Assembly: GCF_003367395.1 (NCBI RefSeq) | Contig: NZ_CP031417.1 | Location: 3,968,001-4,032,000, forward strand | Length of the DNA: 64,000 nucleotides | Source: Pseudolabrys taiwanensis | Lineage (GTDB): Bacteria > Pseudomonadota > Alphaproteobacteria > Rhizobiales > Xanthobacteraceae | Direction: 5' to 3' | Part shown: positions 9,252 to 63,651 of the stretch, one piece after another | How positions within the stretch are numbered: position 1 is the first letter of the stretch | Layout of the letters: every line of letters starts with the position of its first letter | The notes under the pieces: generated by a model | Told to the model about the DNA's origin: nothing | The model's database searches: none | The model's input: the letters and a program-made list of their open reading frames with translations, nothing else | Position numbers and translations under genes: made by a program

Positions 9252-9264
9252 TACCACCGCCGCC

Positions 9265-9366
9265 ATCCTTCGAGGCTCGCTGACGCTCGCACCTCAGGAT
9301 GACGGCGAAAAGCCTTCGTCCCGTCACCCTGAGGTGCGAGGGCGAAGCCCGAGCCTCGAAGGGCGA
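9265..9366. repeat. Family-B inverted-repeat element inside the hslVU operon (copy B2)
   Basis: The left half CATCCTTCGAGGCTCG...CACCTCAGGATGACGG and right half CGTCACCCTGAGGTGCGAG...GAGCCTCGAAGGGCGACGG are inverted copies. The element fills most of the 141-base gap between hslV and hslU, so the operon transcript would carry a large stem-loop. Confidence 0.85.
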
Positions 9367-9392
9367 CGGCCCCAGCATCTGAAAGTCTACCG

Positions 9393-19637: not shown

Positions 19638-19649
19638 TGTCTTGCTTCG

Positions 19650-19757
19650 ACCCGTCACTCCGAGGTGCTCGGCCGAAGGTCGAGCCTCGAAGGGCGACGG
19701 CCCCGACAGTGCCCGTCATCCTTCGAGGCGCGCAAGGACGCGCACCTCAGGATGACG
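19650..19757. repeat. Family-B inverted-repeat element (copy B3)
   Basis: The halves CGTCACTCCGAGGTGC...GAGCCTCGAAGGGCGACGG and CGTCATCCTTCGAGGCGCG...CGCACCTCAGGATGACG are inverted copies, as in B2. It lies between maf and coaE. Confidence 0.85.
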
Positions 19758-20402: not shown

Positions 20403-20584
20403 CTTGATCCCTCCCCCGGAAGGAGAAGGTTGTCGCGCACCCGAAGTCGGATACATCCGACTTCGCTCAGATTAAAGGGCCGAGCTCGGCTATGGCCGAG
20501 TTCGGGTGCACGACGGGGTGGGGTTATCGCGCCGCAATCGACAAAAAACCACCCCCACCCACCACCTGGGCGACGACCCCCAAA
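20403..20584. repeat. Family-A inverted-repeat element with nested hairpins (copy A2)
   Basis: An outer plan like A1 (CCCTCCCCCGGAAGGAG at the left, GGGGTGGGG and CCACCCCCACCC at the right) is interrupted by an insert bounded by GCACCCGAA / TTCGGGTGC. Inside that insert lie a perfect hairpin with arms CGAAGTCGGAT / ATCCGACTTCG and a second with arms CTCGGC / GCCGAG. It fills the maf-PPSR gap. Confidence 0.7.
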
Positions 20585-21804: not shown

Positions 21805-22833
21805 GTGCATGTGGGTAAAAAGTTTCTTAACGTGCTCTCCGGTCATCGCGAGGCAGTGCCGCCGGTCTGGCTCATGCGACAGGCGGGGCGCTACCTGCCC
21901 GAGTATCGCGCTGTCCGTGAGAAGGCCGGCGGGTTTCTCGATCTCTGCTTCAATCCCGAACTTGCGGCCGAAGTAACGCTGCAGCCGGTCCGTCGGTTCG
22001 GCTTCGACGCCGCGATTTTGTTTTCCGACATCCTGGTGGTGCCGCTGGCGCTCGGACGGAAGGTCGAGTTCCTTGTCGGCGAGGGACCAAAGCTCGAGCC
22101 GCTCACCGACGCGGCCGGACTGGGAACACTGCGGACGGAAATCGATCAGGCGGTGGTCGGCAAAGTCTACGAGACCGTGACGCGCGTGAAGTCCGCGCTC
22201 GACGATAAGACCACCCTCATTGGTTTTTGCGGTGCACCGTGGACGGTCGCCACCTACATGGTGGCCGGCGAAGGCACACCCGATCAGGCGCCGGCCCGGA
22301 TGTTCGCTTACCGCGATCCGGATACGTTTGCGCGATTGATCGATCGCCTGGCGGACGCTTCGATCGACTATCTCACGGGTCAGCTCAAAGCCGGGGCCGA
22401 ATGCGTGCAGCTCTTCGACACCTGGGCCGGTGTCTTGTCGCAAGCCGAGTTCGATCGCTGGTGTCTGATGCCGACGAAAAAGATCGTCGATGGCGTCCGC
22501 GCGCGCGTGCCGGGTGCGAAAATCATCGGCTTTCCGCGCGGCGTCGGCAGCAAGCTCTGGCGTTACGTCAAGGATACCGGCGTTGATGCGGTCGGTCTCG
22601 ATTGGATGCAGGGGCTGACTTACGCGCGCGAGCACATCCAGACGCTCAAACCGGTGCAAGGCAATCTGGATCCTTTGGCCTTGCTGGCTGGCGGCGATGC
22701 GCTCGATCGCGAGATCGATGCGGTGATGCAGGCGCTGGCCGGCGGCCCGTTCATCTTCAATCTTGGCCACGGCATTCTGCCGCCAACGCCGATCGCTCAT
22801 GTCGAGCGGATGCTGAAAAGGGTGAGGGGTTAG
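21805..22833 (+). CDS. hemE: Uroporphyrinogen decarboxylase
   Basis: This 342-residue enzyme decarboxylates uroporphyrinogen III to coproporphyrinogen III in heme synthesis. The substrate-binding [17 protein letters not shown] and [12 protein letters not shown] (catalytic Asp) are present, with [13 protein letters not shown] and the C-terminal [11 protein letters not shown]. The start is GTG 21805, the only suitable start before the conserved [13 protein letters not shown] lies upstream. Confidence 0.97.
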
Positions 22834-22843
22834 TGCTTCTTGA

Positions 22844-22893
22844 TCCCTCCCCCGCAGGGGGAGGGTGGCCGCTGTAAGCGGCCGGGTGGGGGA
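22844..22893. repeat. Family-A terminal inverted repeat, left arm (A3)
   Basis: A 50-bp arm matching the reverse complement of 23231-23280 at 46 of 50 positions by eye. It contains two hairpins, CCCTCCCCC/GGGGGAGGG and GGCCGCT/AGCGGCC. It ends directly at the ATG of the DUF559 gene. Confidence 0.9.
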
Positions 22894-23283
22894 ATGGCCA
22901 ACGAGATCGCCAGACGTCTCCGCAAAACTATGACGCCGCAGGAAGTGAAGGTGTGGAACCACCTTCGCACGTGGCGAAGCCACGGATTCCATTTTCGGCG
23001 GCAAGCGCCGCGGGCTGGCTATGTCGTCGATTTTCTTTGCTTGAAGCATCGACTTGTCGTCGAACTCGACGGCGGTCAACACAATTACGATGGCATGCAG
23101 GCAAGCGATCGGGAACGTGATGACAAGTTGACCGTGGGCGGCTTTCTCGTGCTCCGCTTTTGGAATAGCGATGTCGATCAGAACCTGTCGGGTGTGCTGG
23201 AAACCATCCACGCGGCTCTGCGGGAAAGACACCCCCACCCGGCCGCCTGCGGCGGCCACCCTCCCCCTGCGGGGGAGGGATAG
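22894..23283 (+). CDS. DUF559 (Vsr/PD-(D/E)XK-like) nuclease-like protein carried between inverted repeats
   Basis: This 129-residue protein has the DUF559 layout: NEIARRLRKTMTPQEVKVWN, then the putative catalytic D46 in VVDFLCL and E57/D59 in VVELDGGQH, then DRERDDKLTVGGFLVLRFWNSDV. DUF559 is related to very-short-patch repair endonucleases. The ATG follows the left repeat arm, and the right arm encodes the last 16 or so residues (PHPAACGGHPPPAGEG) before the TAG. The gene therefore fits exactly between the arms and lies between hemE and hemJ. It may be a small mobile unit. Confidence 0.85.
   Translation: MANEIARRLRKTMTPQEVKVWNHLRTWRSHGFHFRRQAPRAGYVVDFLCLKHRLVVELDGGQHNYDGMQASDRERDDKLTVGGFLVLRFWNSDVDQNLSGVLETIHAALRERHPHPAACGGHPPPAGEG
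23231..23280. repeat. Family-A terminal inverted repeat, right arm (A3)
   Basis: Inverted copy of 22844-22893; it lies within the 3' end of the DUF559 reading frame. No clear target-site duplication is visible outside the two arms. Confidence 0.9.
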
Positions 23284-23292
23284 AGGCTCATC

Positions 23293-23715
23293 ATGTACGA
23301 GTGGCTCAAAGCGCTGCACATCATCGCGGTCATCTCCTGGATGGCCGGACTGCTTTATCTGCCGCGCCTGTTCGTCTACCACGCTGCTGCCGAGCCCGGT
23401 TCGGCACAGTCCGAGACCTTCAAGGTGATGGAGCGGCGGCTGCTCAAGGCCATCATGGGCCCGGCCATGGGCGTGACCTGGGTGCTCGGCATCGTCCTGG
23501 CGATTCAGGGCCACTGGTTCGTCGCCGGCTGGCTTCACGCCAAGATCGCCTTGGTCGTGGCGATGTCGGTCATGCACGGGCTGTTCGGGCGCTGGGCCAA
23601 CGATTTCGCCGCCGACCGTAACCGCCGGAGCCAGAAATTCTACCGCATTGCCAATGAGATACCGACGGTTCTGATGATCCTGATCGTCATTTTGGTGGTG
23701 GTGAAGCCGTTCTGA
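23293..23715 (+). CDS. hemJ: Protoporphyrinogen IX oxidase HemJ
   Basis: This 140-residue, four-helix membrane protein oxidises protoporphyrinogen IX to protoporphyrin IX. Conserved residues include His9 in YEWLKALHIIAVISWMAGL and the segment LLYLPRLFVYHA, with AKIALVVAMSVMHG further on. It is next to hemE in many alphaproteobacteria; here the DUF559 element separates them. ATG 23293 has GAGG six bases upstream. Confidence 0.95.
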   Translation: MYEWLKALHIIAVISWMAGLLYLPRLFVYHAAAEPGSAQSETFKVMERRLLKAIMGPAMGVTWVLGIVLAIQGHWFVAGWLHAKIALVVAMSVMHGLFGRWANDFAADRNRRSQKFYRIANEIPTVLMILIVILVVVKPF

Positions 23716-37376: not shown

Positions 37377-37435
37377 GGCAAAGCAGTCAGCGCATCAAAG
37401 CGCGAGCGCAGGTTGTGATCTGTTGAACTAGAGCC

Positions 37436-37524
37436 GCTCATTCCCGCGAAAGCGGGAATCCAGCGCGGCACATGAAACGTTCGCCCGTTTGGCCCTGGGT
37501 CCCGCTTTCGCGCTGGCGAACGGA
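37436..37524. repeat. Family-C inverted-repeat element (C1)
   Basis: CATTCCCGCGAAAGCGGGAATCCAG on the left is mirrored by CTGGGTCCCGCTTTCGCGCTGG on the right, with copies of CGTTCGCC/GGCGAACG. It lies between convergent genes. Confidence 0.7.
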
Positions 37525-46911: not shown

Positions 46912-47082
46912 GCTCTCTTCCCCCTCTCCCCTTGCGGGAGAGGGTGGCGAGCGCGAAGCGCGAGCCGGGTGAGGGGTCAACGCTTCAATTGAAACCTTGA
47001 CCCCTCACCCGCCCTCGCTCGGCTTCGCCTCCGCTCGGGCACCCTCTCCCGCAAGGGGAGAGGGGAGCGCGCAAGCGGCAGC
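46912..47082. repeat. Family-A inverted-repeat element without a gene (A4)
   Basis: Arms CCCTCTCCCCTTGCGGGAG and CTCCCGCAAGGGGAGAGGG, with inner GGGTGAGGGGTCAA / TTGACCCCTCACCC, face each other around a short centre with CTTCAATTGAAACC. No coding frame is present, in contrast to A3. Confidence 0.85.
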
Positions 47083-47703: not shown

Positions 47704-47719
47704 GGTCGTCCCTGTTCTT

Positions 47720-47852
47720 CCGTCATCCCCGCGAAAGCGGGGATCCAGTACGCCGCAGTCTATCGATAGCACACAGCGTCCTGGATCCCGGGTTTCGCGG
47801 AGCCTGTCATCGGGCCGCGCTTTGCGCGGACCCGTTGGCTCGCCCGGGATGA
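47720..47852. repeat. Family-C inverted-repeat element (C3)
   Basis: CGTCATCCCCGCGAAAGCGG...GATCCAG and CTGGATCCCGGGTTTCGCGG...CCCGGGATGACG are inverted halves. It separates the methyltransferase and yggS. Confidence 0.8.
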
Positions 47853-55032: not shown

Positions 55033-55166
55033 GTCACCCTGAGGTGCTTGGCGCGGAACGCGCCAAGCCTCGAAGGGTCTGAGCATCTCGGTTGCTCTCG
55101 TTTCCGGGAGTCAGAGCCCCTTCGAGCCTCGCGTGCTCACGCACGCTCGCTCCTCAGGGTGACGGA
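55033..55166. repeat. Family-B inverted-repeat element (B4)
   Basis: CGTCACCCTGAGGTGCTTGG...GCCTCGAAGGGTCTGAG and CCTTCGAGCCTCGCGTGC...CTCCTCAGGGTGACGG are inverted halves, in the gap between lptE and the next gene. Confidence 0.85.
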
Positions 55167-61166: not shown

Positions 61167-61200
61167 CCAAAAGCACCGATATTCAGATGCCGCGCTGGAT

Positions 61201-61380
61201 GTCCATCGCAAGTCGGCTGTAGCCGACTTGCGTACTATAGGTGATGGACATCGGGTAAACCCGATGTCCATCGCAAGTCGGCTGTAGCCGACTTGCGTAC
61301 TATAGGTGGTGGACATCGGGTAAACCCGATGTCCATCGCAAGTCGGCTGTAGCGCGACTTGCGCACGATAGGTGGCGGGA
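61201..61380. repeat. 65-bp tandem array of alternating perfect hairpins
   Basis: The unit starts at 61201, 61266 and 61331. Each unit has a hairpin with arms GCAAGTCGGCT / AGCCGACTTGC (loop GT) and one with arms GATGGACATCGGGT / ACCCGATGTCCATC (loop AA). The third unit has diverged (AGCGCGACTTGC). They are back to back, between PilZ and the 3' end of parB. It encodes nothing I recognise. Confidence 0.85.
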
Positions 61381-61418
61381 ATGAACGGTGCGTGTTTCAC
61401 ACCTGACTATAAACTGAT

Positions 61419-62411: not shown

Positions 62412-62600
62412 TCTTCATCCCTCCCCTGAAAGGGGAGGGTCGATCCGAGCAAAGCGAGGATCGGGGTGGGGCTTACTCTCGTTGCGAAGCGACCTCACCC
62501 GGCTCGCTGCGCTCGCCACCCTCCCCGCGCCGAAGTCGGATGTTTCCGACTTCGGCCACTTTAATTCCGAACTCGGGTAAACCCGAGTTCGGTGGGGAGG
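62412..62600. repeat. Family-A element with nested hairpins (A5)
   Basis: CCCTCCCCTGAAAGGGGAGGG...GGGGTGGGG on the left and CCTCACCCGG...CCACCCTCCCC on the right face each other. The right loop is expanded with two perfect hairpins: arms GCCGAAGTCGGA / TCCGACTTCGGC and GAACTCGGGT / ACCCGAGTTC. It lies between parB and parA. Confidence 0.8.
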
Positions 62601-62602
62601 GA

Positions 62603-63546: not shown

Positions 63547-63651
63547 ACACTCCGTTCGTTCCCGCGCAAGCGGGAACCCAGGGTCACACAGCACAGCCTC
63601 TCCGCTTCTGGCCCTGGGTCCCCGCTTGCGCGGGGACGAACGGCCTCAATT
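63547..63651. repeat. Family-C inverted-repeat element (C6)
   Basis: CCGTTCGTTCCCGCGCAAGCGGGAACCCAGG and CCTGGGTCCCCGCTTGCGCGGGGACGAACGG, written here in shorter terms as inverted halves, separate parA and rsmG. The overall length is about 105 bases. Confidence 0.8.

Follow-up and report, generated by a model that had tools for sequence, protein, structure and literature searches.

DUF559 genes adjoin Box C/PIT/TM repeats and encode a candidate enzyme for this bacterial repeat class

In the window under analysis, a stretch of 64,000 nucleotides from the genome of Pseudolabrys taiwanensis, a gene for a putative DUF559 nuclease is enclosed by two inverted arms which, judged by their sequence, are copies of the published repeat known as Box C, PIT or triplex motif (TM). 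With slightly better than even confidence, we regard this unit as a gene-carrying copy of the Box C/PIT/TM repeat, whose nuclease would be the cognate enzyme that cuts the folded TM, with recombination or copying to follow. The anatomy of the unit, the linkage of gene and repeat in multiple phyla, the co-occurrence of the gene with repeat load, the constraint on both gene and arm DNA, and presence or absence at orthologous sites are directly supported by the data. The identity of the repeat, missed in the initial annotation of this DNA, was recognised through a literature search with the stem string, which led to Holder 2015 (PMC4666352). According to this source, the repeats, known from E. 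coli since the 1990s and named Box C, then PIT and then TM, are present in over 260 genomes and have been linked to instability without an enzyme being assigned to them. The E. coli motif is described there as forming an intrastrand triplex in vitro, and strain MG1655 as carrying 23 TMs, of which five sites are inverted pairs that vary between strains; the passages on TM sites report no mobility activities around them (Holder 2015, PMC4666352). The words 'nuclease' and 'DUF' are absent from the text of PMC4666352. Entry 9 of its Table 1 is a TM (1351204–1351239) with fabI on one side and ycjD, which is a DUF559 gene, on the other; the 3' end of ycjD is overlapped by a degenerate TM (by eye), as in the window. 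No literature link between DUF559 and TM repeats was found in open-licence papers, so one may exist elsewhere.

The two 50-nt arms (22843–22892 and 23232–23281) are complementary at 47 of 50 positions (94%), lie 339 nt apart and form the longest, first-listed inverted pair of the whole 64-kb window. The arms proposed in the initial annotation are themselves confirmed, while their coordinates were one base off and their match had been given as 46 of 50. Each arm follows the same plan, i.e. a C/T-rich hairpin, a second hairpin and then an unpaired G-rich third strand that matches the purine strand of the C/T-rich stem. On the forward strand, the left arm (22843–22893) comprises the TM hairpin (22845–22865), the second hairpin (22867–22883) and the third strand (22884–22892), while the inverted right arm (23232–23281, reverse strand) comprises the third strand (23232–23240), the second hairpin (23241–23257) and the TM hairpin (23259–23279). 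As single-stranded DNA, both arms fold into two hairpins (z values of −4.1 and −3.1, equalled by none of 200 shuffles). The DUF559 ORF (22894–23283, forward strand) encodes 129 aa and, as had been claimed, its ATG directly follows the left arm (start at 22894, arm end at 22892, agreeing within one base), while the right arm encodes its C-terminus (about the last 16 residues), since the stop codon TAG occupies 23281–23283. The upstream ORF stops at 22833 and the downstream ORF starts at 23293; we take these to be hemE and hemJ, respectively. The usual closeness of these two genes, also proposed previously, was borne out by their adjacency in 26 of 29 fetched relatives.

The third strand of the left arm, GGGTGGGGG, stops one base upstream of the ATG and overlaps the ribosome-binding region, and the arm is conserved as DNA (see below), features which would suit arms that regulate the gene's expression and take no part in mobility. 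Against this stand the gene-less copies of the same plan (113 hairpin matches and ten pairs in this genome), the occurrence of motifs 3' of the gene and up to 200 bp away from it, and the reported lack of promoter or terminator activity of PIT elements (PMC4666352); a purely regulatory role is thus considered very improbable.

DUF559 is a common domain without an assigned function, a match to which is carried by 112 of the 299 sampled Pseudomonadota genomes. In the protein encoded by the window, the Pfam match (PF04480, E=1.4e-35) spans residues 3–109. The alignment of 104 rows shows E57 in every row and E17, Q37, D46, D59 and H63 in 101–103 of them, a residue set that corresponds to the pattern of a putative PD-(D/E)XK/Vsr-like nuclease, and we presume that the fold is of the PD-(D/E)XK type and Vsr-like. 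Pfam searches of this protein up to E=1 identified no transposase and no PF03852 (Vsr) domain, the two further matches both being below their cut-offs, and PF03852 has no match in the genome. The nearest solved chains are 3hrl ('Endonuclease-Like Protein', E=2.4e-37) and 3r3p ('Mobile intron protein', E=7.9e-5), the latter presumably being I-Bth0305I; PDB matches weaker than 3r3p were taken as chance, as was the single Rfam match to positions 22600–23500, which was below its cut-off. PADLOC returned two weak matches.

Six PF04480 matches are present in the P. taiwanensis genome. All four small stand-alone genes (L001–L004, that of the window being L003) have TM arms on both sides, while the two DUF559 domains within larger proteins (L005 and L006) lack any inverted pair that scores higher than shuffled sequence (22 and 23, against a shuffle maximum of 31), and the translation of L005 has lost the catalytic residues. 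The TM hairpin pattern has 113 matches in this genome compared to one for the reversed-pattern control. Gene-less inverted pairs were identified by eye in nine of 20 fetched stretches, which had been chosen from the list of TM matches partly for visible pairs; with that of the window, ten such pairs of 116–145 bp were available, in which the arms are alike, the spacers unlike, and TTCTTAT/ATAAGAA is often located just outside. The conservation of arms but not of spacers in these gene-less copies fits slow constraint as well as amplification. A linker stem of at least 5 bp, variable in sequence yet complementary, is present in 22 of 41 distinct arms, compared to 81 of 820 shuffled linkers.

Within the window, the assertion that four further elements share the arm plan without the gene did not hold: there is one intact gene-less pair (46922–47064, 143 bp, with inverted arms and inward third strands as in the DUF559 unit), and two elements are damaged. 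The latter, assigned by eye, are a pair at 62419–62601, in which the right hairpin is split with a second repeat, termed family B, in its loop, and an arm at 20409–20523, in which family B occupies the loop of the second hairpin (about 20442–20505). The palindromes at 9260–9373, 19645–19757 and 63552–63643 differ in sequence from the TM arms.

Family B is a repeat of about 66 bp composed of two palindromes (CCGAACTCGG..CCGAGTTCGG plus GAAGTCGGAT..ATCCGACTTC), with sites at about 20442–20505 and 62530–62590 in the window, at 1855–1923 of L001, and in L289–L308. All three copies in the window and L001 are located in loops of TM-arm hairpins (by eye). Among the matches listed, 20 further copies were inspected (19 congeneric and one from the same genome), of which 17 are framed by TM stem halves (by eye); of the other three, one has its left half only, being truncated by a contig end, another is doubtful and the last lies outside a TM, and the automatic stem score exceeded the 95% value of the null in 14 of the 20. 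These observations suggest that family B is a repeat that targets hairpin tips, and insertion at such tips in turn suggests that TM arms fold in cells. Other palindromic sequences were also observed. A second paired family, CATCCTTCGAGGC...CTCAGGATGACG, occurs in the window at 9260–9373, 19645–19757 and 55120–55164, and similar-looking sequences of this type fill the hemE–hemJ gap in several congeners. A third family (TCATTCCCGCGAAAGCGGGAATCCAG and variants) occurs at 37434–37520, 47719–47850 and 63552–63643, and a similar element, CATTCCGG..CCGGAATCCAGT, fills the site orthologous to that of L001 in L271 and L272. Lastly, a tandem array at 61198–61390 has a 65-bp unit with two palindromes (GATGTCCATC and CGCAAGTCGGCTGTAGCCGACTTGCG), present as two full copies that are 98% alike and a partial third.

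To place the unit among its relatives, 138 DUF559 loci were assembled, which represent the best-scoring genes and not a random draw: four from P. taiwanensis (its two domain-in-larger-protein matches being left out), 25 from a family sample, the best 80 of 174 loci retrieved from species genomes by means of conserved peptides (the named loci), and 29 from a phylum sample of 299 genomes. The family sample consisted of 119 genomes, from which 30 loci were fetched and five dropped for truncated contigs (L011, L021, L026, L028 and L029); one of these five had an inverted-pair score above the shuffle maximum. TM-type hairpins are located within about 200 bp of the gene on both sides in 84 of the 138 loci, on one side in 48 and on neither in six. 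Among 307 control ORFs (at least 90 aa, from the flanks of the 80 named loci), none has hairpins on both sides and 22 have them on one. The absence of arms around other DUF559 genes had been named beforehand as an argument against the proposed relation; TM-type hairpins are located near 132 of the 138 loci examined. Under a stricter hairpin definition, the 80 named loci divide into 38 with hairpins on both sides, 39 with one and three with none, and in two of these three (L037 and L042) arms are visible by eye. Hairpin density is 3.2–9.6 per kb within 150 bp of DUF559 and 0–0.14 per kb beyond 500 bp. The motifs are also oriented: the third strand of the nearest left motif points toward the gene in 83 loci and away in seven (23 undecided, 25 without motif), and that of the nearest right motif toward the gene in 81 and away in 11 (14 undecided, 32 without motif). 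Scores were also high in a null for which the flanks of different loci had been swapped, probably owing to shared arms and to loci not all being oriented, and this null was set aside.

The 80 named loci include records titled Chloroflexi, Armatimonadetes, Prevotellaceae and Aminicenantes, some of them binned metagenome contigs. Nine further loci examined by eye, from Neisseria, Deinococcus, Picosynechococcus, Sinorhizobium, Azospirillum (three) and Klebsiella, also have TM motifs beside the gene, with one-sided motifs in Azospirillum, one Sinorhizobium and Klebsiella, and direct orientation in Neisseria. Another architecture has a whole TM pair on one side of DUF559 only, and in two Bacteroidota-like loci (L105 and L114) the third strands face away from the gene. 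In L225 (S. meliloti Ak57 pSymB), DUF559 has an entire TM pair on either side, the two copies being inverted and having the same spacer, and an ISRm16 transposase gene adjoins this arrangement. Chance or base composition as the source of the pattern, which a G+C-rich genome with many repeats might invite, can be practically dismissed in view of the reversed pattern (1 versus 113 matches), the shuffled flanks and neighbouring ORFs, and the presence of loci in several phyla by record title. That DUF559 is nearly always beside a TM in the sampled genomes suggests that the nuclease spreads or maintains TM repeats.

A repair function was also considered, in which a Vsr-like DUF559 protein would resolve the trouble caused by triplexes and hairpins, or T:G mismatches as proposed for Caulobacter VsrA. 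The latter is described as a DUF559, Vsr-like protein that causes the DNA damage response seen in Caulobacter without the methylase ScmA (PMC12907096). Such a function would agree with the reported instability of TM loci (Holder 2015, PMC4666352) and with the purifying selection on DUF559 that is described below, but repair does not require that the gene be placed between repeats. In the Vsr (PF03852) control, for which 30 loci were fetched, three were too short and 27 readable, no hairpin was located within 400 bp of the domain in any of the 27, while 28 of the 29 DUF559 loci of that phylum sample had one within this distance. We consider a repair role to be decidedly unlikely.

The presence of the gene also tracks the number of repeats. 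Among the 299 Pseudomonadota genomes, all at least 90% complete, five or more TMs were present in 74 of 83 genomes with strong DUF559 (E<1e-20, a cut picked after viewing the table) and in 20 of 216 others, an odds ratio of 81 that is inflated because genomes are related. A permutation within families retained the association (observed 241.9 versus 175.1, sd 8.5; none of 20,000 as high, p=5e-5); gene-less copies are commoner in genomes with DUF559. The association has exceptions in both directions, as at least ten TM matches occur in 14 of 216 genomes without strong DUF559 and fewer than five in nine of 83 genomes with it. A renewed search of eight of those 14 yielded a gene fragment in one (G397), only weak matches inside large open frames in three, and nothing in four; G397 has 166 TM matches and no intact DUF559, and its truncated 3' gene fragment (L236) abuts TM sequence. 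In the family sample, DUF559 is absent in ten of 119 genomes, yet these have 2–104 TM matches, and the repeats can therefore outlive, or do without, the gene.

Agreement between the type of arm and the type of repeat is indicated in a few cases. In G211, matches of the CCCTC type number three and those of the ATCTCCCC type 196, and the arms of its locus L216 are likewise of the ATCTCCCC type; arm and repeat type also agree in G311 (152) and its locus L207. Mismatches were observed in the sampled loci L210 (G207) and L217 (G375), where the arms are CTTCTCCC-like although the genomes contain 90 and 35 ATCTCCCC repeats, respectively, and in G325, with ATCTCCCC-like arms (L201) and only three exact repeats; G393 has 53 ATCTCCCC repeats and no DUF559 match. 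Similarity of arm stems and of proteins is weakly correlated (rho 0.16, p 0.0075, 57 named loci). Third strands fit their own stem better than exchanged stems (0.946 versus 0.852, sd 0.0045; 224 motifs, not all independent).

The persistence of TMs in genomes without DUF559 (the 14 of 216 with at least ten) bears on a further explanation, whereby TMs spread or persist by other means and TM islands are safe landing places for free-standing DUF559 genes of the homing type. It would also accommodate the other palindromic sequences held by the same intergenic spot in congeners, the distant relationship of DUF559 to a mobile-intron protein and the assignment of a cyanobacterial DUF559 gene to the EDxHD homing family in the cited report (PMC9403480). 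The gene as a passenger on TM islands is less readily reconciled with the finding that none of 307 other ORFs in those stretches has a TM on both sides, or with the orientation of the motifs, the within-family co-occurrence and the partial matching of arm types, and is therefore judged unlikely, albeit credible.

Regarding the age of the unit, its fixation between hemE and hemJ in all relatives had been named as counter-evidence, and it is not fixed: it is absent in 18 of 18 readable congeners. Of 37 genomes that matched, 29 relatives were fetched among the matches listed, and both genes were present in 26 (18 of them congeneric), with a gap of 9–188 bp that leaves no room for the unit in any; in nine of the 18 congeners the gap is 9–24 bp. 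A lone degenerate left arm is located at this site in L134 and L155. The unit is present at apparently the same place (by eye) in L037 (metagenome-assembled), where the gene has an in-frame stop, and in L038 (Rhodoplanes piscinae by title), and is old because it is common to these two; some units are vertically inherited. The dN/dS ratio between the window and L038 is 0.19 for the whole gene and 0.11 for the domain (NG86; dS of 1.2 and 2.3, near saturation), L037 being left out because of its in-frame stop, and that between L001 and L270 is 0.12 (148 codons, some upstream of the domain). Such values indicate purifying selection on DUF559 genes. Over the final 17 codons, third positions are identical to those of the window in 17/17 (L037) and 16/17 (L038) cases, compared to 56/112 and 52/112 for the earlier codons; the arm is conserved as DNA, because third positions are kept in the arm-coded tail and in only about half of the gene body.

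At the site of L001, 12 of 19 congener loci were readable. One (L270) is filled with both arms, four are short and empty (35–37 bp), five have other, mostly palindromic sequence of 82–158 bp, and one has 917 bp. In another (L282, from G139), a single TM hairpin is present, similar to a collapsed pair in E. coli EH2252, where 64 bp were lost between two stems and one hairpin is left; the hairpin in L282 may likewise be what such a loss left behind. Gene-less TM pairs of E. coli are present or absent depending on the strain: at fepB–entC 186 bp are absent in 23CRST027 and at hrpB–mrcB about 115 bp are absent in 20AR0192, with no target duplication readable at either site, the junctions being diverged. 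These presence/absence sites could be deletions. The flgF–flgG region of BL21 was rejected as an empty site, as it has different intergenic DNA, including a palindrome that we take to be REP-like. A fabI–ycjD–sapF query was covered over at least 80% of its length in 3334 of 5426 E. coli genomes; of the others, the two fetched as candidate empty sites for ycjD (O157 and ST131) were rejected, having efflux genes beside sapF. The query for the S. meliloti Ak57 surroundings was covered to at least 80% by four records, and among the matches listed (40 of 139) Ak57 itself was the sole one seen. In Azospirillum, the DUF559 site is filled in seven of seven records holding the site, one with about 1 kb of extra DNA; A. 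lipoferum, the eighth record with DUF559, is outside those seven. At the sites compared, the data consist of presence and absence, and not of direction or junction chemistry: comparison of close strains revealed no movement of a copy with the gene, and no insertion with target duplication was resolved. The DUF559 unit has inverted ends, and a target duplication was not readable at any junction compared.

Returning to the reading of DUF559 as the cognate enzyme of the repeat, the following course of events may be envisaged. The protein would act in trans on TM copies of its type, recognising the folded arm (hairpin and third strand) when single-stranded or in cruciform form, for example at replication, and would cut at the folded arm, upon which repair or copying from another element would spread or homogenise the repeats and, occasionally, spread the gene itself. 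In this reading, the nuclease would bind and cut TMs, thereby moving or converting them. The REP/RAYT-like relation between repeat and Vsr-like nuclease put forward in the initial annotation is partly supported, namely as regards linkage, co-occurrence, the arms around other DUF559 genes and the unit's absence in congeners, while its components of recent gene movement and target duplication found no support. If DUF559 and TM do explain each other, an old question becomes testable and a class of bacterial repeats gains a mechanism.

Comparison with known systems places the unit in context. In REPtrons, a RAYT gene is flanked by repeats, and gene-less inverted pairs constitute the REPINs. Palindromic repeats accompanied by a small cognate enzyme that cuts DNA would be common to both systems, and both share the placement of the enzyme gene between repeats with gene-less copies elsewhere. 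They differ in that the REPtron enzyme is of the HuH superfamily and unrelated by family to DUF559, and in that a GTAG-type tag is present there and a third-strand segment here. Homing endonucleases of the EDxHD family (I-Bth0305I) are distantly related in sequence (3r3p, E=7.9e-5), whereas DUF559 is located outside any intron or intein and is flanked by palindromic repeats that are numerous in the genome. RIME elements are paired palindromes of rhizobia for which, to our knowledge, no enzyme has been described, and we assume that the ATCTCCCC-type pairs may be RIME. Vsr genes (PF03852) differ in being without TM flanks in 27 of 27 readable loci. The TM as published (Holder 2015, PMC4666352) shares its plan of stem, linker and third strand with the window arms, which differ in that the pair holds a nuclease gene and that the linker often has an extra hairpin. 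For REPtrons, groups of REP enzymes are reported to have co-evolved with their repeats, and TnpA-REP of the HuH superfamily to process single-stranded, folded REP (PMC8266576). In the evolution of Legionella, segments that carry a DUF559 gene together with a transposase are described as recombination hotspots (PMC12308824), which is compatible with DUF559-driven recombination and silent on TMs. We give an even chance to the broader proposal that the enzymes missing for Box C/PIT/TM repeats are DUF559 proteins such as YcjD and its relatives, which would form a second, independently evolved REPtron-like system, based on a Vsr-like nuclease that recognises a folded hairpin/triplex and not one fixed sequence; its range would comprise Alpha- and Gammaproteobacteria and, as judged by the loci examined, also Cyanobacteria, Deinococcota and Bacteroidota. 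If this is true, pairs of repeat and nuclease comparable to REP/RAYT have originated more than a single time, and from enzymes that are not related to each other.
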